DNA of 64,000 nucleotides, from assembly GCA_019753105.1 (NCBI GenBank), contig JAIELJ010000006.1:124001-188000 (forward strand), written 5' to 3'. This document shows, in pieces, positions 35,936-59,381 of the stretch (position 1 is the stretch's first letter; every line of letters begins with the position of its first letter). Both the position numbers and the translations under genes were made by a program. This DNA comes from Hyphomonadaceae bacterium. GTDB lineage: Bacteria; Pseudomonadota; Alphaproteobacteria; Caulobacterales; Aquidulcibacteraceae. The notes under the pieces are model-generated. The model did not search any database and was not told the DNA's origin. It saw only the letters and a program-made list of their open reading frames with translations.

Positions 35936-35949
35936 TTGAGCTATATCAA
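35936..35949. promoter_or_regulatory. FNR/FixK-type dyad before META lipoprotein gene
   Basis: TTGAGCTATATCAA differs from TTGAT-N4-ATCAA at one half-site base. Its centre is about 81 nt before the ATG at 36024, which leaves room for a class II promoter and a 40-nt leader. Confidence 0.5.
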
Positions 35950-36023
35950 AGTTCGTGAGCGAAGGGAGCGTACGGTGTTCATTGTGCCTGACCGGGCGCA
36001 GTTGATCCGAACATGAGGCTCCT

Positions 36024-36503
36024 ATGCGGCGCACGAATTACCTGCCCCGTCTCACTCTCTTGAGTTTGGCGGCATTAGGATTGTCGAGTTGTGGCTTGTC
36101 TGCTCAGGGCGAGCTGCCCGATGAGCTTGGTGGATCGTGGGTGGTCCAGCAGATAGCCGGCGCATCCTTGGGAGAAGGCGTGGAAGTCTACATGGAAATC
36201 GACGCGAGCACCGGCGCGATCATAGGCTTCACCGGCTGCAATCAATTCTCATCATCGATGACGGCGTTCTCTGACGCCCTTGCCGTAGGACCGATCCAAG
36301 AAGAGCCAGGTGAATGTACGAGCCCCGAGGCCGCCACTGACGAGGCCCGCTTCCTCGGCGTGCTGCCCTCAGTGCATCGCTTCCGGCGCCGGGGCCAGGC
36401 GCTTGAGCTCTTGCCTCAAGAACAGGGCGAAGCCTTGCTAAACTTGCGTGTCGATGACTTTGCCACGCTCACTCACCCCGCGACGACTGCGCCGTCTCGC
36501 TAA
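36024..36503 (+). CDS. META/HslJ-domain lipoprotein
   Basis: The N terminus has a lipoprotein signal ending in GLSSC. The domain contains the META landmarks LGGSWVVQQIAG and the GFTGCNQFSSS core, plus a late Cys in GECTSPE. HslJ/META proteins are heat- or stress-linked periplasmic lipoproteins of unknown reaction. The 159-residue length is normal for one domain. A cytochrome lipoprotein gene follows in the same direction. Confidence 0.8.
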   Translation: MRRTNYLPRLTLLSLAALGLSSCGLSAQGELPDELGGSWVVQQIAGASLGEGVEVYMEIDASTGAIIGFTGCNQFSSSMTAFSDALAVGPIQEEPGECTSPEAATDEARFLGVLPSVHRFRRRGQALELLPQEQGEALLNLRVDDFATLTHPATTAPSR

Positions 36504-36536
36504 GCGATTGCGCACCTAACCAGGATAACGCCGCCT

Positions 36537-36630
36537 CGGGCCAGGGTCGGCCCAATCGCAAATTTTCTCCAATGACCGGCGCGCTCCAAACTACCTATCG
36601 TTCTCTACCCGCCCATTCGGCTTCTCGCCG
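36537..36630 (+). repeat. intergenic repeat family, degenerate copy 4
   Basis: TCGGGCCAGGGTCGG, CGCAAATTTTCT, ATGACCGGCGCGCTCCAA and TTCTCGCCG fall in family order and spacing. Confidence 0.6.
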
Positions 36631-36672
36631 CTTGCGGTTATTGTGGAGGATCAAGGCGATCACGGTGCCGTC

Positions 36673-37074
36673 ATGCAAATTCGCCCTATGCTGAAGGCCT
36701 TTCCGCTTATGGCCCTTGTGTTCGTCGCGCTTGCGGCCGCCGCGTGCACAACTCAAACGCAGCTCCGATTTGAACCTCTGACGCCTGCCGAAAGGATGGC
36801 GCGGATTGAGGAAGGTCGTGAGATCGCTACGAGCCAGTGCGGGAGCTGCCATGCGGTCGCGCTCGCGGACGCTAGTCCACGACCCGACGCCCCACCACTA
36901 CGCAGCGTGCTTGAACGTTATGACTCGGCCGCCCTTACCGGAAATCTGATGATCGGAGTTCGGGTTGGTCATCCTGATATGCCTCTGTTCCACATGGGCC
37001 CACGCGGCGCAGACGCCTTGGTCGAGTACCTTTATTCGATCAGATCCCCGAACCAGCAAGGTCCGGAGCGATGA
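36673..37074 (+). CDS. small c-type cytochrome lipoprotein
   Basis: I chose the ATG at 36673 (MQIRPMLKAFPLMALV); 36688 is also possible. The signal ends at the lipobox LAAAAC. The haem site is CGSCH, with a probable Met ligand in HPDMPLFHM and the end ALVEYLYSIRSP. The C-terminal half matches the dihaem protein at 46312 closely. It is a periplasmic monohaem electron carrier. A weak dyad (TTGTGGAGGATCAA at 36641) lies very close to the start. Confidence 0.85.
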   Translation: MQIRPMLKAFPLMALVFVALAAAACTTQTQLRFEPLTPAERMARIEEGREIATSQCGSCHAVALADASPRPDAPPLRSVLERYDSAALTGNLMIGVRVGHPDMPLFHMGPRGADALVEYLYSIRSPNQQGPER

Positions 37075-37099
37075 GCGTCGGGCTCGATCCAGAGCAAGG

Positions 37100-37426
37100 T
37101 TACCGCTCGCTGTTAGCGCAGGCGAAGCAGAGCGCCGCTTCCGGACGCGCCTCAAGACGCTTGGGAGCGATCCCATCGCCGCAACGCACACATTCTCCAT
37201 AGCTACCGTGTTCGATGCGCAGCAGCGCCCGGTTCACGGAGGCAATCTCGCGGCTGATCAACGCAGCCTGTCCTTCGAGGGACTCATCGTCTTCCAATTC
37301 TACCGCTTGCTCGGACAGGTCACGGTTGAGGGGTTCAGCTAGCTCCACGTAGATCCGATTCTGCCGCTCCTTGAGTTCCGCGAGTTGTTGTTCCAGACGA
37401 ACTCTCGCTGCATCGGTATTCGGCAT
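37100..37426 (-). CDS. DksA/TraR-type zinc-finger protein
   Basis: The 108-residue protein has an N-terminal coiled coil (RVRLEQQLAELKERQNRIYVEL), the DxxDxA-like acidic tip region LEDDESLEGQ, and a C4 zinc finger CVRC-x17-CFAC at the end. DksA/TraR proteins bind the RNA polymerase secondary channel. It is shorter than DksA (about 150 residues) and closer to TraR/YbiI-type proteins. It converges on the cytochrome gene. Confidence 0.85.
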   Translation of the reverse strand: MPNTDAARVRLEQQLAELKERQNRIYVELAEPLNRDLSEQAVELEDDESLEGQAALISREIASVNRALLRIEHGSYGECVRCGDGIAPKRLEARPEAALCFACANSER

Positions 37427-38299: not shown

Positions 38300-38313
38300 T
38301 TGATGGGGCTCAA
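38300..38313. promoter_or_regulatory. FNR/FixK-type dyad before membrane protein gene
   Basis: TTGATGGGGCTCAA has one perfect half-site and one with a single mismatch. TATTGC lies at the expected -10 distance for a class II promoter, about 67 nt before the ATG at 38415. Confidence 0.5.
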
Positions 38314-38414: not shown

Positions 38415-38804
38415 ATGATCTTGCGTGGTATGGGACTGGGCTTTGTTTTGTGGCTTATCAATGCCGCTTTGTTCCGCTTCGCCGGACAACATTTTTTCAC
38501 GCCGAGCGTCGCGCCGCCGGTGCTCATGTTCGCGATCACCGCCATCATTGGCACCGCGATCACTTTCGTTCTGCTGAAGCTACTGCGTGAGGCGCATGGA
38601 GACGAGGGTGAAGCGGCCGTGAGCGTGGCGTTCCCGAGCCTGCTGCTAAACGCGTTGCTCACCTACGATTTCGCCACGATCTTTCCCAATCTTGATGGGG
38701 CTTTAGATGGCGTCTATGGCGCGATGGCGATGGTTTATTCGGCAGCGATGGTGTTCACTGGACTCATTATGACGCGGTTGGCGGACAAAGATCTGCGCCT
38801 TTGA
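38415..38804 (+). CDS. DUF5367-like small membrane protein
   Basis: The 129-residue protein has four hydrophobic spans, beginning MILRGMGLGFVLWLINAALFRFAGQ and including LLLNALLTYDFATIFPN. This pattern resembles DUF5367 proteins. The function is unknown. An FNR/FixK-like site precedes it. Confidence 0.65.
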   Translation: MILRGMGLGFVLWLINAALFRFAGQHFFTPSVAPPVLMFAITAIIGTAITFVLLKLLREAHGDEGEAAVSVAFPSLLLNALLTYDFATIFPNLDGALDGVYGAMAMVYSAAMVFTGLIMTRLADKDLRL

Positions 38805-38984: not shown

Positions 38985-39815
38985 TCAGTGTGACATAAAC
39001 ACCGGCACTTGCGCGTTTTCGATCACGGCCCGCGTGACGCCGCCGAAGATCCATTCCCGCAGCCGCGCGCGACCATAGCCGCCCATGACGATGAGGTCGG
39101 CGCCGATGCGGGCGGCGCCTTCCATCAGAATGTCGCTGCTGTCGCGGCCCAAGCCGTCGAGATTGCGGACTTCGACTCTGAGACCGCGGCGCGCCAGATG
39201 CGCGGCGATATCCGCACCGGGCGCCGGTCCCACGCCGTCGACGCTCGGTTGCGCATCAACGGTCATGATGGTGACGAGGTCGGCCTTATCGAGCAATGGC
39301 GCCGCATCAGCCAACGCACGCGCGGCCTCGCGTTTGCCGTTCCAGGCAACAACGACATTGCGTCCGAGCTCTGGTCCCTTCCAACTTGGTGGCACAAGCA
39401 AGACAGGCCGTCCCGAACCGAACAACACGCCTTCAAATACAGCGATGCGCCAATTGTCACCACCGGGACGCATCATCACAGTGAGGTCGGCATGACGAGC
39501 GTGAACCGCTGCAACTCCGGCGGCGAGCCCAGAGGCGACAACCAGTTCACGTACCGCAATCGCGCGTTCAGAACGCTTAGTGCGAGCATCCAGAAGGGCC
39601 CGCTCCTTTGCAAAGCCTTCGCGCGCCTGAGCAAGGACCTCCGTCCACATCGCCGTCACCATGACGCCTTCAATGGTGTAAATGGGCTCCGGCTCTAATT
39701 CGAGAAGGACAGCTGTCAGATCCGCGTCAGACACGGACGCCAGCGTTTCAGCGGCGGCGAGTGCAGGTTCATCCTCGCTGACCGAAAACAGCGAGACCGC
39801 GATATCCTTGAACAT
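38985..39815 (-). CDS. tandem-domain universal stress protein
   Basis: I chose the ATG at 39815 (MFKDIAVSLFSV), which has an AAGGAGGG site, over the ATG at 39851. The 276-residue protein has two UspA folds. The second has the ATP-binding motif GGYGRARLREWIFGGVT. The first lacks a clear G-2x-G-9x-G motif. UspA proteins accumulate in stress and low oxygen. A dyad TTGAGTTCGCTCAA overlaps its leader but is too close to the start to activate. Confidence 0.88.
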   Translation of the reverse strand: MFKDIAVSLFSVSEDEPALAAAETLASVSDADLTAVLLELEPEPIYTIEGVMVTAMWTEVLAQAREGFAKERALLDARTKRSERAIAVRELVVASGLAAGVAAVHARHADLTVMMRPGGDNWRIAVFEGVLFGSGRPVLLVPPSWKGPELGRNVVVAWNGKREAARALADAAPLLDKADLVTIMTVDAQPSVDGVGPAPGADIAAHLARRGLRVEVRNLDGLGRDSSDILMEGAARIGADLIVMGGYGRARLREWIFGGVTRAVIENAQVPVFMSH

Positions 39816-39904
39816 CTGACCCTCCTTCGGGGATGCCTTGAGTTCGCTCAAAGCTTGAGCAGCCTATAGCAGACAGCGCGATGCTTGATTGTTTCTGAGC
39901 GCTG

Positions 39905-40167: not shown

Positions 40168-40181
40168 TTGATCTGGCGCAA
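40168..40181. promoter_or_regulatory. FNR/FixK-type dyad before phasin-ATPase operon
   Basis: TTGATCTGGCGCAA has one perfect half-site and fits the relaxed FixK pattern TTG(A/C)-N6-(T/G)CAA. It ends 47 nt before the phasin-like ATG. Confidence 0.5.
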
Positions 40182-40228: not shown

Positions 40229-40666
40229 ATGAGCCAGGCAGTCATCGACTTCACCGAGCGCCTAAAGACCACTCTATTGACGCTTGAGGAGCGTTTGGGG
40301 AAGGCCAAAGAGGCGATTGACGCCAACGCTTCAAAGGCCAGCGAACAAGCACGCAAACACATTGAAGAAGCTGTCGAGCAGATTGAAACGTTTCGCGCAC
40401 ACGCCAGTGTGATGGCGCAGGCCATTCGAGCGGACCTACCTCAGCAGACTGCAGCAGCAAAAGAGATACTCCAAGAGTTTAGCCAAGAGGCGCAGGTGGC
40501 GATGCGTCACGCCGTCGTTTTTCTTGCGGAGGCGACCTCAAAGGGTGCCGCGAGTGCTGCTGGAGCACTCAACGCTGGCGCGAAGTCAGCCCACCTTCTC
40601 GCCGAAGACCTGAAGCACGAGACCGCCATCACCGTTATCGAACCCAAACCCGACGCACAGAATTAG
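40229..40666 (+). CDS. phasin-like coiled-coil protein
   Basis: The 145-residue protein is almost entirely amphipathic helix, rich in Ala, Glu, Lys and Gln (LKTTLLTLEERLGKAKEAID, KHIEEAVEQIETFRAHA). This is typical of phasins that coat polyhydroxyalkanoate granules and of related stress proteins. An AAGGAG site precedes the ATG. It ends 3 nt before the P-type ATPase gene, so the two are co-transcribed. A role tied to the ATPase rather than PHA is possible. Confidence 0.65.
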   Translation: MSQAVIDFTERLKTTLLTLEERLGKAKEAIDANASKASEQARKHIEEAVEQIETFRAHASVMAQAIRADLPQQTAAAKEILQEFSQEAQVAMRHAVVFLAEATSKGAASAAGALNAGAKSAHLLAEDLKHETAITVIEPKPDAQN

Positions 40667-40669: not shown

Positions 40670-43603
40670 ATGGTCGCGCGCGCGCAGCCTCGAAGCGCAG
40701 GTGTCATTTACGACCATCGGCTCGAGCCGCAGGTGCATATCCATCATGCGCTGCCCGGTCGAACGCGGTTGCGGCTCTCGCCCCTGCGCGGCCAGCCGGA
40801 TCTACTTGCCGCCTTGGCGCGCCGTGTTGCCGCGCGGGATGGAGTTGGATCGGTTCACGACAACTCGTTATCCGGCGGGTTGCTAATTGAGCACGATGCC
40901 GCGCTCTCGTCTGAAACCGTCGCCGCGATGGTGCGTGTCATCTGGCGCCGAGGCTTGACCGCGGCCGCGCCGGCTGTGGCACATGATGGCTTGCAGCGAA
41001 GTTGGCACGCGACGCCCGCCGCGGCCGTTGCAGCTGCTTTTGCCAGTCCGCGTGGCTTGTCAGAGAGCGATGCTGCCGAAAGATTGCACCGCATCGGCGA
41101 AAACCGTTTGGCCGAGACGCCGCCGCCATCGCTGCTTCGGGTTCTCGCTAAGCAACTTGCATCCGTTCCGGTAGCGTTGCTAGGCGGCTCGGCTGTGCTC
41201 TCTATCGCTACCGGCGGATTGATCGACGCGCTGCTGACGCTGGGCGTCATCGGCCTCAACGCCGGCATCGGCGCATCGACCGAAAGTTGGACTGCTAATC
41301 TTATCCGTAGGCTTGCGCGGCAGACCGATCCAGATGCCCTGGTGTTGCGTGACGGAATCGAAACGCACGTACCAACGTCTCGTGTTGCTCCAGGCGACTG
41401 GATCGTCTTGAAGACCGGCTCGGCCGTGGCGGCGGACGCCCGGCTCCTCCAGTCACAAGCCTTGCACGTTGATGAGTCCTCACTGACGGGTGAGAGCTTT
41501 CCTGTTGAGAAAGCTGCAGACGCAATCATTGATGAAAAAGCGCCACTTACAGTACAACGCACGATGGTCCGTCGTGGCAGCGTCGTAACGAACGGATCAG
41601 GTTTAGCGGTCGTAACGGCCACGGGTGCGGCAACCGAGATCGGCCGCGTCCGCAAGCTTGTCGAAACCGCGGACTCGCCAAAGCCGCCCATGGAGCGATC
41701 GCTCGACAAGCTGGGCGTTCGCTTGACTATCGCATGTCTCAGCGCGTCAGCGCTCTTGGCTGTTCTCTTGCGCGCACGCGGCACGCCATGGACCTCGGTG
41801 GCAAAGAGCGCCGTGGCGCTGGCGGTTTCATCCATCCCCGAAGGCCTTCCGGCGCTGGCCGCTTCAACAAAAGCCCTCGCGGCGCGCGCGATGTCTCGCG
41901 AGGGCGCCTATGTGCGCAATGTTAGTGTTATCGAAACCGCGGCGACCATCGACGTAATCTGCCTCGATAAGACCGGTACATTGACTGAGAATCGCATGCA
42001 TGCCTCTGTCGTGCACACGATGGGCAGACGGTACGACTTGCGCGAAAACACTTCCGTTCCGCGCAGCGTGCGCCTTATTTCCAAGTACGCCGCACTCTGC
42101 AATGACGCCGATCTTGGCGATGCCGAAGCGCCGTCGGCCGGCTCAGGGACGGAACGCGCGCTTTTGCATCTTGCGGCTTCGGCGAACATTCCTGTTGAGG
42201 CGCTCCGCGAGCGACACCCGCGCACGAAGACGCTTATGCGATCCGAGCAGCGCCTTTACATGCTCACGGAACATGCCTCGAACGACTCCAGCTTCCTGGC
42301 AGTGAAAGGCGCGCCGCATCAAGTCCTGCAGCTATGCACAACCGCTCGCGTGTCCAAAGGATCGCGCGTGCTCACCAGCGAGGCGCGTGAAGATATCCTG
42401 GCTCAGAACGAAGTCATTGCACGCGAAGGGCTGCGCGTACTCGGCATCGCACGCGGAGTCGGTCCACTGGATGGCGAACCGCGGAACCTGGAATGGCTCG
42501 GACTTATCGGGCTGCGTGATCCACTGCGGGCGGGCGCGAGAGAAACTGTGCAGTCATTACAGCGAGCGGGCCTGCGCACAGTTATTCTCACTGGAGATCA
42601 GGCAGGCACGGCGCATCGCTTAGCGGAGGACTTGGGCTTCTCCATTGACGGCTCGCTCGACGTCATTGACGCTAGCGCCCTTCGTCAAATGGCGCCCGAA
42701 GCGTTGGCCACGGCGGCCCGTACAACAGAAGTGTTCGCGCGCGTCAGCCCTGCTGACAAACTGGCAATCATCCGCGCGCTCCAGGCTCAAGGTCACGTCG
42801 TCGCGATGACTGGCGATGGCGTCAACGATGGTCCAGCCCTGCGCGCAGCCGATATTGGCATCGCTATGGGGAAGTCCGGCGCGGACGTAGCGCGAGACGT
42901 CGCTGATATCGTGATCGCCGACGACGATCTTACGTCTCTCACGCGGGCGTTGGCGCGAGGGCGCACCGCGGAGACCAACCTTCGCAGCGCGGTTCGCTTT
43001 CTACTCGCCACCAACACAAGCGAAGTGGCCTTGCTCCTTGCGGAGGGTCTACACGGACCGGAAGCATTGGAGACGCCAGCTCAACTCTTTTGGCTCAACC
43101 TGATGACCGACGTGTTTCCTGCGCTCGGCTTATCCATGGCGAAGCCACCGAAGGATATCCTCGATCGGCCGCCGCGCAGCGTCGCACGCGATGCGTTTGG
43201 CTCCGCGGCACTTCGTTCTATTGGGCGTGACGCGCTCCGCATTGCGGCCCCGGCAATGATCACTCACATCGTCGGTACGGCACGCTATGGGTCTGGTCCC
43301 CGAACCCGCGGATTGACCTTTCTTGCGTTGGCCAGCCACCAGCTGGCGCAAGCGCTGCGGCTGCGGCCCGGCCACCCGGCAACAGATCTGTTGGATCGCT
43401 CGATCGAATTGGGTGTCGCCGCCGGCTATGGTCTTCTTGCCGCGCCCTTCATGCTGAAGCCACTACGGCATGTGCTGAAGATCGTGCCGCCACGTCCTAT
43501 CGAGGCCGCCGCGATCATTGGGCTCTCGCTAGCGCCACTCGCTCTAAAGATACTTTCCGACCGCGCTAACGACTTTTCTCATCAGCAGCGGGTGGCGGGC
43601 TAG
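40670..43603 (+). CDS. P2-type cation-transporting ATPase with N-terminal HMA-like extension
   Basis: The 977-residue protein starts with about 100 residues that resemble a degenerate heavy-metal-associated domain (VHIHHALPGRTRLRLSPLRG) without the CxxC pair. Then come the cation-ATPase N-terminal region (GLSESDAAERLHRIGENRL), the actuator loop (DESSLTGESFPVEK), the PEGLP membrane motif (SSIPEGLPALAA), the phosphorylation site DKTGTLTENRM (Asp433) and the hinge TGDGVNDGPALRAADIGIAMG. PEGLP places it among P2 (Ca2+/Mn2+/Na+-like) pumps rather than P1B heavy-metal pumps. The cation is unknown. Confidence 0.9.
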   Translation: MVARAQPRSAGVIYDHRLEPQVHIHHALPGRTRLRLSPLRGQPDLLAALARRVAARDGVGSVHDNSLSGGLLIEHDAALSSETVAAMVRVIWRRGLTAAAPAVAHDGLQRSWHATPAAAVAAAFASPRGLSESDAAERLHRIGENRLAETPPPSLLRVLAKQLASVPVALLGGSAVLSIATGGLIDALLTLGVIGLNAGIGASTESWTANLIRRLARQTDPDALVLRDGIETHVPTSRVAPGDWIVLKTGSAVAADARLLQSQALHVDESSLTGESFPVEKAADAIIDEKAPLTVQRTMVRRGSVVTNGSGLAVVTATGAATEIGRVRKLVETADSPKPPMERSLDKLGVRLTIACLSASALLAVLLRARGTPWTSVAKSAVALAVSSIPEGLPALAASTKALAARAMSREGAYVRNVSVIETAATIDVICLDKTGTLTENRMHASVVHTMGRRYDLRENTSVPRSVRLISKYAALCNDADLGDAEAPSAGSGTERALLHLAASANIPVEALRERHPRTKTLMRSEQRLYMLTEHASNDSSFLAVKGAPHQVLQLCTTARVSKGSRVLTSEAREDILAQNEVIAREGLRVLGIARGVGPLDGEPRNLEWLGLIGLRDPLRAGARETVQSLQRAGLRTVILTGDQAGTAHRLAEDLGFSIDGSLDVIDASALRQMAPEALATAARTTEVFARVSPADKLAIIRALQAQGHVVAMTGDGVNDGPALRAADIGIAMGKSGADVARDVADIVIADDDLTSLTRALARGRTAETNLRSAVRFLLATNTSEVALLLAEGLHGPEALETPAQLFWLNLMTDVFPALGLSMAKPPKDILDRPPRSVARDAFGSAALRSIGRDALRIAAPAMITHIVGTARYGSGPRTRGLTFLALASHQLAQALRLRPGHPATDLLDRSIELGVAAGYGLLAAPFMLKPLRHVLKIVPPRPIEAAAIIGLSLAPLALKILSDRANDFSHQQRVAG

Positions 43604-43891: not shown

Positions 43892-43905
43892 TTGCCTCAG
43901 ATCAA
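43892..43905. promoter_or_regulatory. FNR/FixK-type dyad between DUF5132-like and DUF445 genes
   Basis: TTGCCTCAGATCAA fits the relaxed pattern with one perfect half-site. On the minus strand TAGAAA lies near the expected -10 distance toward 43841. On the plus strand it is about 32 nt before the DUF445 start. Confidence 0.4.
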
Positions 43906-45384: not shown

Positions 45385-45789
45385 CTACTTCGTCTGCAGT
45401 GCCTTAAGGATCTCTGGTCCCGTCCGACCGACCAGTTCTTTGTCGAGTTCGTGCACCAAAACAGCCTCGAGTTGCTTGTCGTAGCGCCGGCGCATTTCGC
45501 CCAAGGTTGGGGGCGCAGCGATTATTACCAGATGCTCGATTTCGCCTCTCGATGCCTGTTGGTCAAGCCAGAGTACGACAGCGGCGGCGTGCGAATCCTC
45601 TTCAAGCTGGTGCCTAGCCGGATTGGCTGAACTCGAGAAATGGTGAGCGCCAGCGTTCTTGTTGTGCTCGTCAAGCTTGGGCGCCTGCATCGGCGCGAGC
45701 TCGGGCGCAGCCTCGTTCCCGGTATTGCGATGAAGTTCAAATCTCTCGCCGTCAACCACCGCAATGATGGTCCCATGGGGAAGAAGCAT
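45385..45789 (-). CDS. host-attachment family protein
   Basis: The 134-residue protein matches the family PF10116-type pattern: start TIIAVVDGERFELHRNTG, middle HQLEEDSHAAAVVLWLDQQ, then LVIIAAPPTLGEMRRRY and LVHELDKELVGRTGPEI. These eRF1-like proteins were named from plant attachment in rhizobia, but the biochemical role is unknown and they are common in stress clusters. It is the last gene of a four-gene minus-strand unit with TerB, the dihaem cytochrome and DUF350. Confidence 0.8.
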   Translation of the reverse strand: MLLPHGTIIAVVDGERFELHRNTGNEAAPELAPMQAPKLDEHNKNAGAHHFSSSANPARHQLEEDSHAAAVVLWLDQQASRGEIEHLVIIAAPPTLGEMRRRYDKQLEAVLVHELDKELVGRTGPEILKALQTK

Positions 45790-45822
45790 ATCGTCTCCTA
45801 ATGAAATGTGTGGTGACGCGTA

Positions 45823-46245
45823 TCAGGGCACCCAGCACGCGGCTTGTAGAATACCCAATGAGAGCGCGATGCCTGACTGGACTATTGCCGCCGAAAACTT
45901 TCCGGCGACAATGTCGGTGGTCAGGCTTGGAAACAGCAGGCGCGCACTAAACTGACCAATGGTCTGAACCAGAAGCGCGCCGGTGCCCCATATCGTCGTT
46001 TGCATCAATGAGCCGCTCACACTGATGACAAGAGCGAGGGGAATGACAAACCCGATCAGCGCGCCGGTGAGGCCGAGAGCGGCTGCGCCATTGCCCTCGC
46101 GCATGAGCTTGAATTCACTGTGCGGCGTAGTCCAAACATAAATAAAAACGAAGAGCGCCGTTAGAGCCACCGCGACGGCGAAATAAGTGACGAATGAGGA
46201 GAGAGAACTCACCAAACCGGGTTCGTCATAGGTCATGTTGTTCAC
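45823..46245 (-). CDS. DUF350 family membrane protein
   Basis: The 140-residue protein has four membrane spans arranged as two DUF350 repeats. Landmarks are FVTYFAVAVALTALFVFIYVW, GNGAAALGLTGALIGFVIPLA and GKFSAAIVQSGIALSLGILQAACW. The function is unknown. It lies between the dihaem cytochrome and the host-attachment gene on the same strand. Confidence 0.82.
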   Translation of the reverse strand: MNNMTYDEPGLVSSLSSFVTYFAVAVALTALFVFIYVWTTPHSEFKLMREGNGAAALGLTGALIGFVIPLALVISVSGSLMQTTIWGTGALLVQTIGQFSARLLFPSLTTDIVAGKFSAAIVQSGIALSLGILQAACWVP

Positions 46246-46311
46246 TCACAAGATTGGTCACAACCTGCTTCAAGCTTATCGGTCGTTTAAGGTTGGTGTA
46301 CTCGGTTTTCG

Positions 46312-46950
46312 TCATCCTCCTTGGCGCAATTGGATGCTGTTCAAATAGGCAATCAGATGATCAATCTGGGCGGGCTCCAATTCAAATTCCGGCATGTCCG
46401 GATGACCAACAAGGATGCCCTCAGCGAACGCCTCCTCCAGTGAGTTCAGCGGATAACTTTGCGACAAGTTGCGGAATGGTGGAGCCATGGGATGTCGACT
46501 CTCTCCCGTCCCTCCGATGGCATGACAAGTAGCGCAATTCATCTCAGCAATACGTCGCCCTTCCTCGGCGCTTCCAGAACCAGGTAAAGCCTCGGAGCGG
46601 CGTTCTTGCGTTGGGGTCTCTTGGATGGATCGCATGTATTCGATCAAAGCCCCGGCCCCCTGCGGGTTGAACTGCAAGTCGGGCATAGGGTGCGAGACGC
46701 GGATGCCCGCTATCAGTTCATCTTCAAGCACGTCAGCACGATAGCGCGAGAGGATCGTACGGAAATGCGGGGCCGCGGGATTTGGACTCTCTCCGTAAGC
46801 GCCGACCGCGTGACATGCTGCGCATTGGGCTTCGGCGATATCACGCCCATCGTTGGCGATGCTCTCTGGAGATGGCGCAAGCTCCTCGATTGGCACCGCA
46901 CAGCTAGCGAGAATAACCGCTAAGGCTGCGCTAAGCACGGTCCGGATCAT
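46312..46950 (-). CDS. dihaem c-type cytochrome lipoprotein
   Basis: The ATG at 46950 has AGGAGG 5 nt upstream. The signal peptide ends in VILASC. Two cytochrome domains follow: CAACH with a Met in HPMPDLQF, and CATCH with a Met in HPDMPEFEL. Each ends with an xYMRSIQ or AYLNSIQ helix. The two halves resemble each other and the single-domain protein at 36673, so the gene looks like a tandem fusion of that type. The product is a periplasmic, lipid-anchored electron carrier. Confidence 0.88.
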   Translation of the reverse strand: MIRTVLSAALAVILASCAVPIEELAPSPESIANDGRDIAEAQCAACHAVGAYGESPNPAAPHFRTILSRYRADVLEDELIAGIRVSHPMPDLQFNPQGAGALIEYMRSIQETPTQERRSEALPGSGSAEEGRRIAEMNCATCHAIGGTGESRHPMAPPFRNLSQSYPLNSLEEAFAEGILVGHPDMPEFELEPAQIDHLIAYLNSIQLRQGG

Positions 46951-46993
46951 CGAAACCTCCTGCGGCAAGCTGCTGTTTCGCTGCCCGACTGCA

Positions 46994-47491
46994 TCAGAAT
47001 CGGTTCTTGAGAGCAATCACGCTTGATACACGCTCAACGCTCTCCCGGTCGAGACTAAGGTGGAGAACGATCGAGTCTAGGAACTCGGCCTCGTCCTGCT
47101 TCAATTCGCCGTCCGCGAGCACGAGATCCAAGGCATGTGCGAAAAGCGGAAGGCGCATCTCTTCTGGCAACGACTTGCATGCCTCCTGTAGCGCAGAGTC
47201 GGCATCGCGAAGTCGAGCTACAATCTTTGTATTAATTTCGGCTAGTTCATTCGTACTAAGCGACTTAAGCGCGCGCGAGCGATGCACCAGCGCTAGCAGT
47301 TCCTCGTGCTCCACCGCTGCGAGCTGTCCGTCGCAGGTCGTGGCCGCAAACAAGACGGCCACAAATGCTTCCGGGATCGTCCACCCCTCCTGGGCGCCTT
47401 CCTCTTGAGACGCAAGCAGTCGCGACCAATCCAACGGGTTTTCTTCCCGCCCCCTCCGGGCCCCGAGAGTAGAAACAAAAAAATCCGCCAT
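46994..47491 (-). CDS. TerB-family protein
   Basis: The 165-residue helical protein has the TerB-like acidic metal-binding motifs: PEAFVAVLFAATTCDGQLAAVEHEEL and LDLVLADGELKQDEAEFLDSI. TerB-domain proteins are named from tellurite resistance and are found in stress systems; their reaction is unknown. It begins a minus-strand unit that continues with the dihaem cytochrome. An FNR/FixK-like site lies about 60 nt upstream. Confidence 0.8.
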   Translation of the reverse strand: MADFFVSTLGARRGREENPLDWSRLLASQEEGAQEGWTIPEAFVAVLFAATTCDGQLAAVEHEELLALVHRSRALKSLSTNELAEINTKIVARLRDADSALQEACKSLPEEMRLPLFAHALDLVLADGELKQDEAEFLDSIVLHLSLDRESVERVSSVIALKNRF

Positions 47492-47544: not shown

Positions 47545-47558
47545 TTGACTGATATCAA
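47545..47558. promoter_or_regulatory. FNR/FixK-type dyad before terB-cytochrome-DUF350 unit
   Basis: TTGACTGATATCAA has one perfect half-site and one single mismatch. Its centre is about 60 nt before the TerB ATG at 47491, suitable for class II activation with a 19-nt leader. Confidence 0.55.
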
Positions 47559-48816: not shown

Positions 48817-48819
48817 CAC

Positions 48820-51043: not shown

Positions 51044-51057
51044 TTGACAAGGATCAA
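51044..51057. promoter_or_regulatory. FNR/FixK-type dyad
   Basis: TTGACAAGGATCAA is one base from the consensus dyad. It lies about 450 nt before the Nramp gene but only about 45 nt before a structured segment that ends in a terminator. Confidence 0.5.
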
Positions 51058-51089
51058 TGCCTATCGGTTTCGGAAGTGCTTGCGTGCTG

Positions 51090-51195
51090 AGGCCAGCGCA
51101 CAGCGCGCTGATTGATCAGTTGCCCGCGCGATCAGCGCGGAACGCTTGATTGAGGAGCGCCGCTCCGTAGCCCCCGCACGGAGCGGCATTTCTTT
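51090..51195 (+). ncRNA. candidate small RNA with two hairpins
   Basis: Downstream of the dyad, CGCGCTGAT (51104-51112) pairs with ATCAGCGCG (51131-51139). A 10-bp stem GCCGCTCCGT / ACGGAGCGGC (51159-51187) then has the tail ATTTCTTT. This gives a compact transcript of about 100 nt if transcription starts 41 nt after the dyad centre. No clear -10 element is seen and no open frame fills it. Confidence 0.4.
51159..51195 (+). terminator. intrinsic terminator with perfect 10-bp stem
   Basis: GCCGCTCCGT and ACGGAGCGGC pair around a 9-nt loop and ATTTCTTT follows. No annotated gene lies upstream on this strand, so it suggests an untranslated transcript or a leader attenuator for the Nramp gene. 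Confidence 0.6.
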
Positions 51196-52811: not shown

Positions 52812-52823
52812 CTCTTTAGTTGC

Positions 52824-52917
52824 CATCTGGCGACCGGCGGGCCCGCTCCAATCGCGTCGTTGGCGCCCCGCATTCTGAGCGACCCGCCATCGCCGAAAGC
52901 TGCCGGTCGGAAACATT
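52824..52917 (+). repeat. intergenic repeat family, degenerate copy with hairpin extension
   Basis: GGCGACCGGCGGGCCCGCTCCAAT split across the core and CCATCGCCGAAAGCTGCCGG match family order. It leads directly into the hairpin at 52918, as does copy 3 at 35702. Confidence 0.6.
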
Positions 52918-52950
52918 CGGTGACGGCGACAAACACCATCGCCGTCACCG
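52918..52950 (+). repeat. hairpin element, copy 2
   Basis: CGGTGACGGCGA pairs perfectly with TCGCCGTCACCG around CAAACACCA, with GGAAACATT before it. The same element with one mismatch is at 35725-35757. Confidence 0.8.
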
Positions 52951-53043
52951 CGTAGCGCCCGACGAATGCCAGCTGGCGCGATACCTCTCGCTGTTTGCGC
53001 CGCTTCCTATGTGTAGGTGGAAGCGGCTCAGAGAGCGCTACTT

Positions 53044-53514
53044 CTACTGTACGCGCGTGACCTGCATGACGCTGCCATCGTTATAGACCTCGACGCGAAA
53101 ATCTCGCCCGTCTCGGTAGGCGTTAAACAGCGTCTGCATTGCACGGACGCCATCGCCTGCGCCGCTGAAGTCGATCACGGTCAAACGGCCGCCATCGAGC
53201 GTCGATGACGTCGACACGTTCGGAAAGCTACCTCTCATGATCCCGTTTTCGGCGCTGTTCAGCGGCCGGTCCAGCCACGAACACTCCCCGCGCGCCGGTG
53301 GCGTGGCAGCAGTTGCAGATGTACTCATCCGGTCGAAGCTGATTTGAAAGCTGGTGTTGACGCGCCCGCTAGCGTCAACATTGGTCGACACTACCATTTG
53401 TTGGCGATCACCGCCGCCGCGGCACCACAACGTATAGCTCGTCTGCGCGCTCGCCTCCGATGCAGCCGACATCCAGCCCACGATCAAGGCGCAAACTACC
53501 ATTAGCAATCGCAT
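53044..53514 (-). CDS. secreted hypothetical protein (156 aa)
   Basis: It has a signal peptide (MRLLMVVCALIVGWMSAASEASA). The mature protein is beta-rich with two cysteines (TLWCRGGG and GECSWLD) and ends RVEVYNDGSVMQVTRV. The function is unknown. Confidence 0.7.
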   Translation of the reverse strand: MRLLMVVCALIVGWMSAASEASAQTSYTLWCRGGGDRQQMVVSTNVDASGRVNTSFQISFDRMSTSATAATPPARGECSWLDRPLNSAENGIMRGSFPNVSTSSTLDGGRLTVIDFSGAGDGVRAMQTLFNAYRDGRDFRVEVYNDGSVMQVTRVQ

Positions 53515-54188
53515 GTCAGTCCTCCCGCCGGTCCCTCACCTCGGCGACAAGACCTTACGCAAGACCCCTCATGCTGTTCAAGGAACACGTCACGCCGCTC
53601 GTCCTGTTCCTCGATGGGCTCACTTGCCCAAGGGCTGCAGCTGGTCGTGCCCCGCCCGCGATGGCCGGAGATCGCCGAAAGATGCCACCTGCATCCGTAG
53701 GGGATCATTTAAGGCTTCAGCGAGCGCGATCGAGGCTGCACTCTGGGGACGCTCAGACCTTAAGCCGCCGCCACGTTCCATCAGCGCTCGCTGCGCCGGC
53801 TAGTCTACCTTGTCGCGGCAACCCGCCCGTTCGCGGGCGGACACACAACTCAGACTTACGACCATCCTGCACACGGCGTGCACACACTACAAATCGAGAT
53901 CAATCGTGCACTCTATCTTGATGAAAGCACACCCAAGCGTAGTAACAGCTACATACGCGGTCGGGTCGACATGAGCCGCCTGCAGAAGCTCTAAACGCTG
54001 CTGCGCTGCACCAAAATTTGGTGTAAATCACGCGCCTGAGGCTCGGAAGACACGATAGCAACCTATCGTTTCTTGAAACCCAGTTTGAACCTTCAATCCT
54101 TCTGACAATCTTGCCATCTACCGGGAGTCCGGTGTTGGACATTCTGCGGGTGTGTTCACGCCAACAACAAGCACGGGGAAACTCCTCA
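53515..54188. other. 670-nt region without a recognised gene
   Basis: It contains a 7-bp hairpin with a UUCG loop (53823-53840), a perfect 15-nt palindrome CACCAAAATTTGGTG (54009-54023) and a 7-bp hairpin (54052-54069), all within about 370 nt of the porin-like gene. Short open frames lack resemblance to known proteins. Confidence 0.5.
54009..54023. promoter_or_regulatory. perfect palindrome upstream of porin-like gene
   Basis: CACCAAAATTTGGTG is fully symmetric and could be a regulator site for the gene at 54189. Confidence 0.35.
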
Positions 54189-54926
54189 ATGAAAAAGACA
54201 GCACTGCTCGCGGCGGCCGCCGCGTTGTTCGCTGCCTCACCTGCCTTCGCGCAGTCGGGCGGCTCGATCGGATTGAACTACACCAACATCGAAGATGAGG
54301 CCGACAGCTACCAGCTCGACGGCGCATTCGGCAGCGCGAGCGGCTCGTTCGGCTTCCAAATCGACGGCGGTTTCGGCAACATCGAAGATGAGGTCGATAC
54401 GCAAACTATCGCGGGTCACGCATACTGGAATGGCGGCGGTTGGCGCATCGGGGGCGTCTATGCCTACACGAACTTCGATACCGGCAGCGGTTCCGCCTCT
54501 GAGACCGCGTACGGCATCGAGGGCACGTGGGACCTTGGAACGCAAGCCGTGGTGCTCGCTAGCTACACGATCGGCGAAACAGAACTCAGCGGGGACGTTG
54601 ACACGTCCTCGTTCGACATCGGCCTCAACTACTACTTCACAGAGAACTTCCGCGTCGGCGCTTCGTACGGCTTCGGCAAACTCGAAGCGGGTGGTGATGA
54701 GGCAGACACCGGCCACCTGCGCCTCAACACCGAGTGGCAACCCTGGACGACGCCAGTCAGCTTCACTTTAGGCTATAATAGCTTCGACAGTGATGAGCTC
54801 ACTGACGCGGATTCGTGGTCGATCGGGGCGCGTTGGAACTTTGGCGGCTCGCTCCGCGAGCGCGACAACGCCACGCCGTTCGACACGCGCACCGGTTTCT
54901 ATCAACGCATCTACGACATCCGCTAA
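54189..54926 (+). CDS. outer-membrane beta-barrel (porin-like) protein
   Basis: The ATG at 54189 begins a signal peptide (MKKTALLAAAAALFAASPAFA). The 245-residue protein is rich in alternating hydrophobic strands with Gly, Tyr and Asp (IGLNYTNIEDEADSYQLDG, FDIGLNYYFTENFRVGASYG). An Asp/Glu-rich pattern suggests cation contacts. It ends in an internal-looking YQRIYDIR rather than a terminal Phe, so the barrel assembly signal is not typical. The family is a general porin or OmpA-like barrel. Confidence 0.75.
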   Translation: MKKTALLAAAAALFAASPAFAQSGGSIGLNYTNIEDEADSYQLDGAFGSASGSFGFQIDGGFGNIEDEVDTQTIAGHAYWNGGGWRIGGVYAYTNFDTGSGSASETAYGIEGTWDLGTQAVVLASYTIGETELSGDVDTSSFDIGLNYYFTENFRVGASYGFGKLEAGGDEADTGHLRLNTEWQPWTTPVSFTLGYNSFDSDELTDADSWSIGARWNFGGSLRERDNATPFDTRTGFYQRIYDIR

Positions 54927-54953
54927 GCCGCGATCCATTCGCGAGGGATTGGG

Positions 54954-54982
54954 GCGCTCCGCAAGGGGCGCTCTTTTTCTTT
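54954..54982 (+). terminator. terminator after the porin-like gene
   Basis: GCGCTCC and GGGGCGC form a 7-bp stem (one G-U) with a GCAA loop, followed by TCTTTTTCTTT. Confidence 0.75.
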
Positions 54983-55080
54983 GCGCGCACCACGAGCGCC
55001 ATGGCCGCCGACAAACAGCGAGCGGAATGGCTCGAACCGGGCGCCATCAAGCCGCTAGCGCGATCACGCCATGGGGCTCG

Positions 55081-55180
55081 ATTGGGCCAGCCTGAGCCTA
55101 AGCGACAAATTCCGTCAACGGCGTAGTCGATCGATTGCGGTCAATCGCTTAGCGCCCGCAGCTATGTCGTGATCTCGCCG
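55081..55180 (+). repeat. intergenic repeat family, copy 10 (second subtype)
   Basis: ATTGGGCCAGCCTGAGCC, GCGTAGTCGATCGATTGCGG, TCAATCGCTTAGCGCCCGCA and ATCTCGCCG. The middle block is shared with copies 11 and 12. Confidence 0.8.
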
Positions 55181-55270
55181 TCTTGCGTCATTCCTTCCTG
55201 CCTGCCTCGCGCTTAAGGACGGCCGTGGCTTCGCCTTAGGGAGCTCATTTACGAGACGCCCACGACGCCT

Positions 55271-55819
55271 TCATTCTATGCCTGCGAACAACAGGACGTA
55301 GTTCAACGCAAGCAACGCAACGAAGAATACGATCGGCGTAAAGTAGACGTACATTCTATCCAAAAATCTTCCCCACGTTGCCGCACCGTGAGTTTCGCTC
55401 GCGTTGATCCAAACCACCGCCAGTACAAACGCCGGCCACGCGACTATCGCGATAATGAACAGGATGCCGTACGAAAGAACGGCGGGGGCGACTGCTCCCG
55501 GATTGGCGATCCGGCCAAAACGGCGACTATACCAAAGCGCATAACGCGGCACGCCCAGGGCCATTAAAATGCCGATCACCAAGTAATCATAAAACGCGTC
55601 GACAAGCCCAATTCGCAGTAACGGCCCAACCCACGAGAACAACAATGCCATCGTGGAAGTCACATACTCGCGCCAAACGTCAGCGACGCCATTAAACAGG
55701 CCCCGCCATTCAATAATGTCGCGAAAAAGGTTGATAAGGCCAACGGCACCTGCCAACCCCGACAGGTTCGTGTACAGCACCATCAACGGTGATTGAGCGC
55801 TCTCCGCTCGGTCCGCCAT
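55271..55819 (-). CDS. membrane protein of unknown function (182 aa)
   Basis: It has four hydrophobic spans (about 18-34, 56-72, 112-134 and 158-178). An amphipathic loop holds PRYALWYSRRFGRIANPG. The function is unknown. Confidence 0.65.
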   Translation of the reverse strand: MADRAESAQSPLMVLYTNLSGLAGAVGLINLFRDIIEWRGLFNGVADVWREYVTSTMALLFSWVGPLLRIGLVDAFYDYLVIGILMALGVPRYALWYSRRFGRIANPGAVAPAVLSYGILFIIAIVAWPAFVLAVVWINASETHGAATWGRFLDRMYVYFTPIVFFVALLALNYVLLFAGIE

Positions 55820-56097
55820 ACCCGCTCCCAGTTCGGTACCAGGGACAGTTTAGCCAACACATTTCGAAGCGGAAGCGCCTTTCTGAGTAGCCCGACACTA
55901 GTCAGGGGCTTTGCACTGGCAATCGGCGAGCTGCCGGCGCGCTCCGATGCCGCCGCTGGTCACACTGCATAAGCAGGCCGTCGCCGAAAGGCGCCGTTCG
56001 AGTGATCGCGGATGTAAAGCGCTGTCGCAATGTGACGTCGTGACGACAGCCTGAGCGAGCCTTGAGTACTGCCGCCGCCACCGGTCGCGGGACCACC
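55820..56097. other. 278-nt gap upstream of P450 stop
   Basis: No gene seen. The segment 55937-55998 (CGCGCTCCGATGCCGCCG, CCGTCGCCGAAAG) may be a decayed repeat-family copy. Confidence 0.3.
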
Positions 56098-57429
56098 CTA
56101 GCCGTCGAGTCTCACACCCAGACGTGAAATCGCGTGCACGAAGTTGTTTGGGGCGATGTCAATGTCGCCAGTCCAAGTGGCGTTCGGAAAACGCGCCAAG
56201 ATTTGCCTGTACGCTTCTTGAAGCTGGATTTGCGCCACCCGCTTGCCGATGCACACGTGGGGCCCGTAACCGAAAGCGATGTGCTTGTCGGCGTTGGCGC
56301 GTTCAACGTTCAGAGTATCTGGATATTCAAACACAGCCGGATCGCGATTTGCGGCGCCATAATACATGATAACTTTCTCGCCCTCGGCGATGGTTTGTCC
56401 TCCGATCTCGGCGTCGCACGTCGCGGTGCGGCGCATGTAGATGACCGGGCTGACCATGCGGATGAACTCATTTGCGGCGTTCGCGCCAAGTTCTGGCCTT
56501 GCAGCCAACTTCGCTCGCTCATCAGGAAACTCGGTCAAAAGCTTCATCGTGCCTGACAGCGTGTTGCGCGTCGTGTCGTTGCCGGCAAACACTATCAACA
56601 ACCAGGATCCATCGAGGTATTCGTCGCGCAGGAGTTCGTCATCGAGCTTGGCGTGCGCGATTGCCGTAAGCAGATCTTCTTTGGGGTCAGCGCGACGTTT
56701 GTGCAAAAGGTCACGCCCATAAGCGAACATCTCTTCAACATTGGAGTTGAAGTTCTGGATGAACGCAATCAAGTCCGGTGACATCTGCAGCGTGCCGATA
56801 CGCTGCTGCAACGCCAAGTCTTGCGCGCGCTCCAGATAATGCATCCACTCCAGAAACTTCTCGCGATCGGCTTCCGGGACGCCGAGCAACTCGCAAAGAG
56901 TGAATAAAGGCAGGCGCGAGGAGAAATGTTCGACCATATCGATCTCTTCGCCGGCGTGTGGGGCCATAGCGTCGAGCAATTGCGTGATCTTGTCGGCAAT
57001 CCGTCCCTTGATGGCCTCCAGATACTTTGGCGTGAAGAACGCCATATGCTCGCGGCGAAGCTCCAAATGCCAGGGCGCATCCATATTGATCATGGCGTCG
57101 AGTGAGGCGCGTGTGAGCAGCGGATGTCCTTGCTCCGGCCTAGGCGTCACCATCAGGATCCCACCGCGTTGTGACGAGAATGTCTGCGGGTCACCGTTGA
57201 CCTTCATCACATCGTCGTAACGGGTAAGCGCCCAGAAACCAGCGCCGCTCAGCGGCTCGTCAACCCAAACGACCGGCGCTTTCTCACGCAGCTCTCGGTA
57301 GAGATCGTAAGGCTGGCCTTTGGCAAAGACGTGCAGATCTGTGAGACCCGAAGCGTTCAGCTGCGGGCAGCTGCGGGCGAAGGTCGGACCAACACGACCT
57401 TCCACAGCCGTCTGACTAATAAGTTGCAT
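56098..57429 (-). CDS. cytochrome P450
   Basis: The 443-residue soluble protein has all P450 landmarks: the I-helix oxygen motif AGNDTTRNT, the K-helix EFIR (ExxR), and the haem-binding loop FGYGPHVCIGKRVA with the Cys ligand. It resembles bacterial soluble class I P450s that need a ferredoxin and reductase, and none is adjacent. The substrate is unknown. It lies alone among hypothetical genes. Confidence 0.93.
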   Translation of the reverse strand: MQLISQTAVEGRVGPTFARSCPQLNASGLTDLHVFAKGQPYDLYRELREKAPVVWVDEPLSGAGFWALTRYDDVMKVNGDPQTFSSQRGGILMVTPRPEQGHPLLTRASLDAMINMDAPWHLELRREHMAFFTPKYLEAIKGRIADKITQLLDAMAPHAGEEIDMVEHFSSRLPLFTLCELLGVPEADREKFLEWMHYLERAQDLALQQRIGTLQMSPDLIAFIQNFNSNVEEMFAYGRDLLHKRRADPKEDLLTAIAHAKLDDELLRDEYLDGSWLLIVFAGNDTTRNTLSGTMKLLTEFPDERAKLAARPELGANAANEFIRMVSPVIYMRRTATCDAEIGGQTIAEGEKVIMYYGAANRDPAVFEYPDTLNVERANADKHIAFGYGPHVCIGKRVAQIQLQEAYRQILARFPNATWTGDIDIAPNNFVHAISRLGVRLDG

Positions 57430-57595
57430 CGCGCGCTCCGTTTTCGAGCGAGCCTATCTGCACACAGCGACCGCGCAAGGACGCGACGCTACGTCATGGC
57501 CTTGGCTTGAGCATTTCTCGCTGCAATCTTTCGCGAGCGGTTCAGCGCACATAATCATCGGTGCTTCAGAGTAGCACTCGACCGATCCTAGAGAC

Positions 57596-57874
57596 TCAAC
57601 TGCGACGCCGCCGCGCGGTCTTGGCTTTGCTCGAAACCAAGCCCTCGAAGAAATCGGCTACCGGCATTTCCAACACGGTGGCAATGTCCAGGAGGCGGCT
57701 TGCGGAGATCCGATTGGCGCCTTTCTCATACTTTTGAACTTGCTGGAACGTGATCCCCAGTCGATCACCAAGCACCTCTTGGCTCATGCCGATCTCAAAG
57801 CGTCGCGCGCGGACACGCTCACCAATGCGGAGATCAATGGCATTGGGCGCTCGCCCCTTTTTTTGTTCGATCAT
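57596..57874 (-). CDS. XRE-family helix-turn-helix regulator
   Basis: The ATG at 57874 gives a 92-residue protein with one helix-turn-helix (GERVRARRFEIGMSQEVLGDRLGITFQQVQKYEKGANRI split over residues 17-52). A longer in-frame extension upstream is not supported. The tail is basic (KAKTARRRRS). Related alphaproteobacterial proteins of this size act as small repressors. Confidence 0.85.
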   Translation of the reverse strand: MIEQKKGRAPNAIDLRIGERVRARRFEIGMSQEVLGDRLGITFQQVQKYEKGANRISASRLLDIATVLEMPVADFFEGLVSSKAKTARRRRS

Positions 57875-58174
57875 AGACTTCCCTGCACTATACGCGCGTC
57901 GCGTCGCGTCCGACGACGATGTCCCGATCTCTTGCGGCACAAATTGCTCTGGATCAACACACCACCATCCTACGCTCGCACAGCGCGCCGTCAGTTTGAC
58001 GGGCAAAAAGGCGTTGCGTCTCATCTGCCCGAATGTCTTGGTCGATCCAATCCAGCCGCTCAACCAGGTCGGCTCCGGCACTGGCGAACCGGTCGGAGCG
58101 CCATCCGTCTCACACGCCGCGCGCGTCATGATTGCCGATACCGATCACAGCCATAACACGATCTCATGATCGAT
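57875..58174. other. 300-nt gap between XRE and UspA genes
   Basis: No gene seen apart from antisense open frames. The FNR/FixK-like dyad lies at its right end. Confidence 0.4.
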
Positions 58175-58188
58175 TTGCGCAAGCGCAA
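58175..58188. promoter_or_regulatory. FixK-like dyad before UspA gene
   Basis: TTGCGCAAGCGCAA is a perfect palindrome that fits the relaxed FixK pattern. Its centre is about 86 nt before the ATG at 58268. Confidence 0.45.
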
Positions 58189-58267
58189 TGCCGCTATCGC
58201 GCGTGGAGACCCATCTGAACGCAAGGCCGGCCAGGTTCAAAGAAATTGCCATCGTTGGAGCACGAAC

Positions 58268-59089
58268 ATGACATTGCGACGAGTTTTGATGTGGCTGCAG
58301 GCAGACGCTGCAAATAGGCAGTTGATCGCCACCGGCGCCAGGATCGCCGCCGAACACGGCGCCGAACTTAACGCTATCATCACCACGCCCAAGCTCTCCA
58401 GATCAGGCCATTGGGCCGTCGGCGGCATGGTTTCAGGCATGGCCTCAGAGGTGGAGACGAGAGCCGAACGGGCTGCCGTTGAATTGGCCGGCGCAGTTGC
58501 GCAAGCGCGCGCACCGGCCGCACTCACGGGCGCCACAATCACCCAGGCCTTGTCGCCGCATCTCTATGGCGAATTCGTCGCGGTGAAGGGACGGACGTCG
58601 GACTTGGTCATTGCCCGAGCGACAGCGGACGAAGACGCGCGCGGTCAGATTGAAGCGCTAGTGTTTGCCGCCGCACGACCCGTCTTGCTTCTCCCCACCG
58701 ACCATGAGTTCGATCCCCACAAGATCGCATTAGCATGGGACGGCAGCCGCACCGCCACGCGCGCGACTTTCGACGCTTTGCCTTTGCTGAAACGCGCACA
58801 CCAGGTGACGCTCATCCAAGTCACCGATGACAAGGATCTCAGCCGATCAGGAACCGCAGCCGAACTCAGCACGCTGCTGGCGGGTCATGGCGTCAAGTCG
58901 ACAACGTTGGAGGTTCTGGGCCGCGGGCGCCCCACCGCCGAAGCGCTAAAAGATGCGTTCGAGCAAAGCGGCGCCGGTCTGCTTGTCATGGGCGCCTACG
59001 GTCACTCGCGCGCCCGCGAGTTTATCCTGGGGGGCGCGACGTTGGGCACGCTTCAGGCTTGCGCCTTTCCTGTCCTGCTTTCACATTGA
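58268..59089 (+). CDS. tandem-domain universal stress protein
   Basis: The ATG at 58268 has GGAG 7 nt upstream. The 273-residue protein has two UspA folds. The second has the ATP-binding motif GAYGHSRAREFILGGAT and the preceding DGSRTATRATFDALP. It is a paralogue of the UspA at 38985 in length and end (PVLLSH). UspA proteins are induced under stress or low oxygen, which fits the FixK-like dyad in front. Confidence 0.9.
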   Translation: MTLRRVLMWLQADAANRQLIATGARIAAEHGAELNAIITTPKLSRSGHWAVGGMVSGMASEVETRAERAAVELAGAVAQARAPAALTGATITQALSPHLYGEFVAVKGRTSDLVIARATADEDARGQIEALVFAAARPVLLLPTDHEFDPHKIALAWDGSRTATRATFDALPLLKRAHQVTLIQVTDDKDLSRSGTAAELSTLLAGHGVKSTTLEVLGRGRPTAEALKDAFEQSGAGLLVMGAYGHSRAREFILGGATLGTLQACAFPVLLSH

Positions 59090-59136
59090 TGATTAAGAAG
59101 AGACGTCCCGCCTAAGTCGCGCGCCAAGCTTTGTTG

Positions 59137-59359
59137 ATGGGGGTTGGCGTTCTCGGCGCGATAGGCCAAAGGGCGTCGGATTGTCTCCGCGGTGCTTGCC
59201 TGGGGGCATGAAGTGACCGCCCTTGTTCGCGGTGCAAGCGCCATCACACCCGCACCCGATCCTTTAGTTCATGCGATCGACTTTGCCGGCGCCGACGCTC
59301 TCGGATCATCGATGCGACCTCATTGCGCGCCATCTAAGGCATGTTTGGATTGGCACTGA
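59137..59359 (+). pseudogene. remnant of an NAD(P)-binding epimerase-like protein
   Basis: The ATG at 59137 gives a GxxGxxG-type start (VGVLGAIGQR). After a frame change near 59175 it goes on as RIVSAVLAWGHEVTALVRG, then HAIDFAGADALGSS, and stops at 59357-59359. This is the first 60 or so residues of an NmrA/epimerase-like fold, so the gene is frameshifted and truncated. Confidence 0.6.
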
Positions 59360-59367
59360 CGGGCGCT

Positions 59368-59381
59368 TTGATCTCGATCAA
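59368..59381. promoter_or_regulatory. perfect FNR-type dyad before DUF2189 gene
   Basis: TTGATCTCGATCAA matches TTGAT-N4-ATCAA exactly. TTGAAT (59404-59409) lies at the -10 distance of a class II promoter, and the predicted start leaves a leader of about 39 nt. Confidence 0.65.

Follow-up and report, generated by a model that had tools for sequence, protein, structure and literature searches.

A cluster of FixK-type sites

The window analyzed here is a 64,000-nt stretch of the 3.87-Mb genome (20 contigs, G000) of a Hyphomonadaceae bacterium. Its second half holds an island of stress, ion-transport, cytochrome, and membrane protein genes: META lipoprotein, DUF5367, two UspA genes, a phasin-like gene with a P-type ATPase, DUF445, a TerB–dihaem cytochrome c–DUF350–host-attachment unit, and DUF2189, together with a predicted structured RNA (Table 1). 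These genes and the RNA are accompanied by boxes of the pattern TTGA-N6-TCAA, the type of site recognized by the oxygen-pathway regulator FixK, or by degenerate forms of it. The window contains seven such strict sites, compared with a mean of 0.56 in 100 shuffles (largest 3), and all seven lie within the 23.4 kb of 35936–59381, with none in positions 1–33000. An earlier reading made from the letters alone (the sequence-only reading) had estimated fewer than one strict site by chance, which the shuffles bear out; the six strict sites it listed are all real, the seventh (39838) had been overlooked, and its degenerate sites at 40168, 43892, and 58175 are present.

The enrichment is specific to the tetramer and to its spacing. 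Among all 256 tetramers, arranged as X-N6-X' in positions 33001–60500, TTGA has the joint highest count (7, tied with AGCG) and the highest observed-to-expected ratio (7 versus 0.46), and at other spacers from 0 to 20 it gives 0 or 1 sites in the same interval. The whole genome has 56 strict sites, compared with 15 for the pattern read backwards and about 34 expected at the shuffle rate of the window; this excess is modest, so many single sites are background. Among 49 sites outside the window, 43 were examined with a home-made gene caller, which places 26 within predicted genes and 17 in intergenic regions. The caller under-calls the island genes, and the island gene limits were therefore taken from open reading frames and family matches. 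When the 56 sites are placed uniformly at random, none of 20,000 placements brings seven within 23.4 kb, and 22 of 20,000 bring six. The cluster thus exceeds shuffles, the tetramer control, and random genome placements, which confirms that the clustering of FixK-type sites is real. Taken together, sites of the wider pattern TTG-N8-CAA show only a mild excess (22 versus 13.7, with 3 of 100 shuffles equally high), so degenerate sites need conservation to count.

Two of the strict sites are doubtful as activator sites. Site 39838 lies about 30 bp before the UspA start codon, too near for ordinary activation of that gene, and site 45188, which covers the DUF445 stop codon, is possibly a chance occurrence. 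The 14-mer at 45188 (TTGACTTGAATCAA) recurs in the relative G011 (L072 14750) in a different setting.

Conservation of the boxes before protein genes

Conservation in related genomes, on which the sequence-only reading had made its regulon depend, is found for several island genes. A box within 300 bp upstream of DUF2189 is present in 11 of 13 same-genus orthologues (63–87% identity; ten strict, one degenerate), the two without it being L279 and L280. Among 14 more distant homologues, 2 have such a box. As background, 70 strict sites occur in 4135 overlapping 300-bp stretches of relatives. All six TerB orthologues (61–87% identity) carry a box 49–67 bp before the start (four strict, two degenerate), and none of the seven distant homologues examined has one; these counts leave out L307, L310, and L311 of the 17 TerB loci. 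Degenerate forms are kept as well: TTGA(T/C)-N4-CGCAA precedes the phasin-like gene in 9 of 11 orthologous phasin–ATPase units, G008 and G011 being without it, and TTGCC-N4-ATCAA occurs in 5 of 8 DUF445-holding stretches of relatives. In a scan of named genomes, the ATPase had a single close orthologue; its other matches were distant P-type ATPases.

The META, DUF5367, and 39838 boxes have fewer counterparts, and support for the first two is thin. The META box has one further case, a strict box before META in G022 (L106), and the DUF5367 box one, in G011, where the protein is 98% identical and the strict box differs in its middle. Site 39838 is also kept in G011, beside a UspA protein of 97% identity. 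The region of G008 that matches the island holds 9 strict sites in 39.7 kb, against 71 in that genome as a whole.

Three further occurrences of the box in the window's own genome are recorded here. The META locus and its box (window 35921–36611) are duplicated at L016 4077–4771 with 89% DNA identity. A second P-type ATPase unit (L015 1420, G000:C5:70919) has a strict box, TTGAGCC-N-GATCAA, which recurs in three relatives (L105, L109, and L110). The third, at L018 1680 (G000:C12:137179), is strict and palindromic (TTGATCTCGATCAA); it stands about 27 bp upstream of what we take, from its start, to be a dxs-like gene, too near for ordinary activation.

A FixK-type regulator

The genome matches the Crp-type helix-turn-helix family at 13 places, 10 of them over the cut-off. 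Inspection of the recognition helices by eye shows E-x-x-S-R in a single one of the 13 proteins (C5:225374–226045); we take this helix, and the FNR-type cysteine cluster, as markers of regulator type. The Fe-S cysteine cluster of FNR is absent from this protein, both of its cysteines being C-terminal, and among NCBIfam models it matches FixK best (238 bits; equivalog cut-off 300). Genes for FixL and FixJ adjoin it. FixL gives a best NCBIfam match of 558 bits (equivalog cut-off 850), and its PAS region carries PYREAHDGY, which fits R-x-x-H-D-x-Y, presumably the haem PAS motif. The cbb3 oxidase gene ccoN, about 5.5 kb from the regulator gene, is preceded at 116 bp by a strict box. A suitable regulator is thus present, with the sensor pair adjacent and a likely target near.

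The sequence-only reading had allowed for either an oxygen- or a nitric-oxide-responsive regulon. The signal is most likely oxygen, because the regulator is of the FixK kind, lacking the FNR-type cysteine cluster and adjoining FixLJ. Nothing favors the nitric-oxide half of that proposal: no nitric-oxide regulator was found, the search consisting only of reading the recognition helices of the 13 Crp-type proteins. Site enrichment, kept boxes, and a fitting regulator, the three points whose absence was to refute the sequence-only reading, support the island as one oxygen-responsive regulon, and its assignment to FixK is well supported by the sequence.

Under low oxygen, the haem sensor FixL would phosphorylate FixJ, and phosphorylated FixJ would raise FixK. 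FixK would then bind TTGA-N6-TCAA and the variants TTGAT-N4-CGCAA and TTGCC-N4-ATCAA, switching on the stress, ion-transport, cytochrome, and membrane proteins of the island and, in another part of the genome, the cbb3 oxidase. A separate RNA, about 104 nt long, would be driven by the box at 51044, with its start at the first stem-loop and its end in a terminator-like stem.

A predicted RNA family behind FixK-type boxes

The segment behind box 51044 is, according to the covariance models and fold predictions, an RNA of about 104 nt with three stem-loops (SL1–SL3), kept in related bacteria and without a match in Rfam. The sequence-only reading had called this segment structured and had missed that the segment would itself be transcribed from a FixK-type promoter. 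Rfam covariance models give no match to the RNA, whether in the window part (E ≤ 1) or in eight other loci (E up to 0.5); the only Rfam matches in the loci are tRNAs and one tRNA-like element, away from the RNA.

A first model (R1), built from the window copy and two copies in G011, begins 29 nt after the box start and so excludes the box. In 299 genomes of the order it finds ten new matches at E ≤ 1e-6, and in eight of them a strict box occupies the corresponding position; one of these eight, on contig C3 of the window's genome, was already known from its box. A second model (R2), built from 12 sequences and searched in 398 genomes of the order, finds 16 loci with E ≤ 2e-18; these are spread over 12 genomes, 10 from this genus and 2 from other genera in the family. 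All other matches have E ≥ 2e-8. A strict box stands at the identical distance in 15 of the 16 loci, including all four that are new with R2 (G029, G045, G044, and G024; box at −29); for G005, R1 puts the box at −38 and R2 puts it at −29. Among 27 weaker matches (E 2e-8 to 1e-3), 25 were checked, and these show no strict box and one degenerate box. In a search of 289 genomes of the class, matches below 1e-7 occur only in the window's own genome.

The promoter geometry is fixed. Counted from the box start, all 15 box-bearing RNA loci have T, G, and T at +33, +34, and +41; 14 of them also have T at +36, and 13 have it at +37. Because the models include the −10 region, its conservation is in part a result of how the loci were selected, whereas the box lies outside the models and is free of this effect. 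An activator centered at −41.5 sets the position of the −10 element; the element found here fits that spacing, and the RNA start is placed on this basis at 51092, two bases before SL1. A sigma-70 scan of 44500–60500 found no promoter. In the same interval a terminator scan gave 16 hits versus 15.6 in shuffles; SL3, whose 9-nt loop exceeds the limit of the scan, is not among them.

The window copy folds well below shuffled sequences (z −4.65), as do the C3 copy (215656–215785, minus strand) and the two G011 copies (z −4.80 to −5.69). Covariation was assessed in an alignment of 15 sequences that had not been fitted to the structure. In it, 87.8% of cells pair, and double-sided changes affect 7 pairs and 17 cells, compared with 0–3 pairs and 0–6 cells in slid controls; none of 500 shuffles matches the cell count. 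The clearest double changes are in SL2, with C-G to U-A in four sequences and A-U to G-C in three. Reading frames with a start codon (10–33 codons) occur in the RNAs, and their length is not kept among loci. The segment behind site 39838 resembles a copy of the RNA; it folds no better than shuffles (z 0.13; G011 counterpart −0.98) and scores 13.4 bits with R2 (E 0.015), the same as a chance match at 10572 (13.5 bits).

Features of the island

Table 1. Boxes, genes, and RNA elements of the island, with positions in the window.
Feature	Position	Strand	Remark
Strict box before META lipoprotein gene (36024–36503)	35936..35949	+	Found by pattern count
Strict box before DUF5367 gene (38415–38804)	38300..38313	+	Found by pattern count
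Strict box between UspA gene (38985–39815, −) and phasin unit	39838..39851		No direction assigned; also in G011
Degenerate box TTGATCTGGCGCAA before phasin-like gene (40229–40666) and P-type ATPase (40670–43603)	40168..40181	+	
Degenerate box TTGCCTCAGATCAA before DUF445 gene (about 43940–45196)	43892..43905	+	
Strict site overlapping DUF445 stop codon	45188..45201	+	No clear gene behind
TerB, dihaem cytochrome c, DUF350, and host-attachment/baeRF genes, consecutive	45385..47491	−	
Strict box before TerB unit	47545..47558	−	
Strict FixK box TTGACAAGGATCAA before predicted RNA	51044..51057	+	
Extended −10 element TGCTTGCGT	51077..51085	+	Position expected for activator at −41.5
Predicted structured RNA	51092..51195	+	Start and end inferred
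RNA parts SL1; SL2; SL3 with U-rich tail	51094–51110; 51112–51153; 51159–51195	+	
Degenerate box before second UspA gene	58175..58188	+	Located by pattern
Strict box before DUF2189 gene (59455–60204)	59368..59381	+	

An intergenic repeat, about 100 bp long, is dispersed through the window in 13 copies, each on the plus strand (24851, 26156, 27977, 35155, 35605, 37606, 47653, 49409, 49981, 50918, 55082, 61165, and 62379). Elsewhere there are 4 copies in other stretches of the same genome, 14 in two G011 stretches, and 1 in the 13 searched stretches of other relatives. Positions 47777–49937 hold small minus-strand genes without known function, one of which weakly matches Imm11 immunity proteins, just under the cut-off.

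Weighing the explanations

Taken as a whole, the sequence is best explained by the island being a cluster of FixK-activated promoters, one of which, at 51044, would serve a separate RNA; we regard this as very probable. That the cluster reflects base composition or regional repeats is, by comparison, highly improbable. The region does have a somewhat lower GC content, many copies of the dispersed repeat, and a duplicated META locus, yet the shuffles and the 256-tetramer control contradict a composition effect, the boxes are kept before orthologues in other genomes above background, and the core of the repeat does not contain the box. Use of the boxes by another Crp/Fnr-type protein or a nitric-oxide regulator is also unlikely. 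FNR, FixK, and DNR share a common site, according to PMC2908626, and there are 13 Crp-type matches to choose from; only one has the E-x-x-S-R helix, and it is that one which has the FixLJ and cbb3 genes beside it.

The role of the RNA is more evenly balanced. An AhpD-like gene, assigned by family match in G009 and by similar sequences in the others, starts 27–35 nt behind SL3 in 9 of 11 type B loci (not in G005 or G024). The type A copies (the window, C3, and two in G011) appear free-standing; in the window, the next gene on the same strand, an Nramp transporter, begins about 300 nt on, judging by its putative start codon. The leader form is taken as the older because it is found in more genomes, and the family probably began as a leader of the AhpD-like gene and turned into a free-standing regulatory RNA in this genome. 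There is an appreciable chance, short of even, that the RNA is instead only a cis-acting leader or attenuator and that the free-standing copies are relics without trans function, spread with the dispersed repeat. The position of the AhpD-like gene speaks for this, as does the repeat lying directly upstream of the box in all four type A copies. The free-standing copies nonetheless retain box, −10 element, and fold. Their U-rich tails (ATTTCTTT, TTTTCATT) are present in all four, while among type B copies only G029 has a clear U run, most lacking the tail; moreover, the gene next to the G005 copy is convergent with it, as is the one next to one of the G011 copies, which argues against a leader-only role. 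We put at about even the chance that this is a new low-oxygen regulatory RNA family, switched on by FixK through a fixed promoter geometry, with one form that is a structured leader preceding an AhpD-like gene and a free-standing form multiplied in FixK islands.

Several observations weigh against a FixK-driven island and RNA. FixK and FixL both score under the named-equivalog cut-offs of NCBIfam, and no box precedes fixK in the 10 genomes examined. A −10 element at a fixed distance is not seen for the 29 boxes that precede protein genes. Within the genus, FixK is present in 27 of 30 genomes (the window's genome included) and the RNA in 10 of 30. One locus that belongs to the RNA family by score, G011:C9:76681, is boxless, and so is the G139 locus (R1 E 1e-7), which is not among the R2 matches. 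Type B copies fold modestly relative to shuffles (z −1.1 to −3.4), and the three stems are missing from some of their minimum-energy folds. In the covariation test, the pair count of double changes is matched by 60 of 500 shuffles, and the changes fall mostly between two subfamilies, so that they represent few events.

Comparison with known systems

The FixLJ–FixK pathway of Caulobacter is described in PMC3751524 and PMC7078487. The system here resembles the Caulobacter crescentus regulon in its FixL–FixJ–FixK genes, TTGA-N6-TCAA boxes, and cbb3 oxidase target. For Caulobacterales, the portion of PMC4999443 covered gives FixK as the only such regulator, with targets confined to redox processes, and mentions no RNA there. 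Unlike the regulon outlined in that portion, the island adds the phasin–ATPase, DUF445, TerB–dihaem–DUF350, DUF2189, META, and Usp genes and a structured RNA. The alphaproteobacterial FNR/FixK/DNR core regulons, in the part of PMC2908626 covered, include uspA, cbb3 genes, a P-type ATPase, and cytochromes, members shared with the regulon proposed here; in this genome, FixK would replace FNR, and most island genes are not among the members described in that part. No FixK-driven RNA of this kind was recognized in the portions covered of PMC5082802, PMC7143759, PMC2848018, PMC5596092, and PMC2245857, nor more generally in the literature on FixK and small RNAs, FnrS and alphaproteobacteria, or structured RNAs and the CMD family; this absence is weak evidence because only open-licence literature was covered.

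The island and its RNA may extend what such regulons control. What is known of FixK regulons concerns mainly oxidases and haem genes, and the FixLJ–FixK pathway also governs nodule bacteria. The FixK regulon proposed here would add an island of stress and transport genes, along with a structured RNA behind a FixK-type promoter of its own. In enteric bacteria, FNR activates the small RNA FnrS, which is also about 100 nt long and combines a TTGA-N6-TCAA activator site with low oxygen; the RNA predicted here differs in having no Rfam match, another regulator, and a second form that precedes an AhpD-like gene. With its fixed box-to-RNA distance, the family supplies a clean set of promoters at which FixK is predicted to sit at −41.5. 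If the proposal is true, the family would be the RNA arm of the FixK pathway, comparable to FnrS in the FNR pathway and independently evolved.

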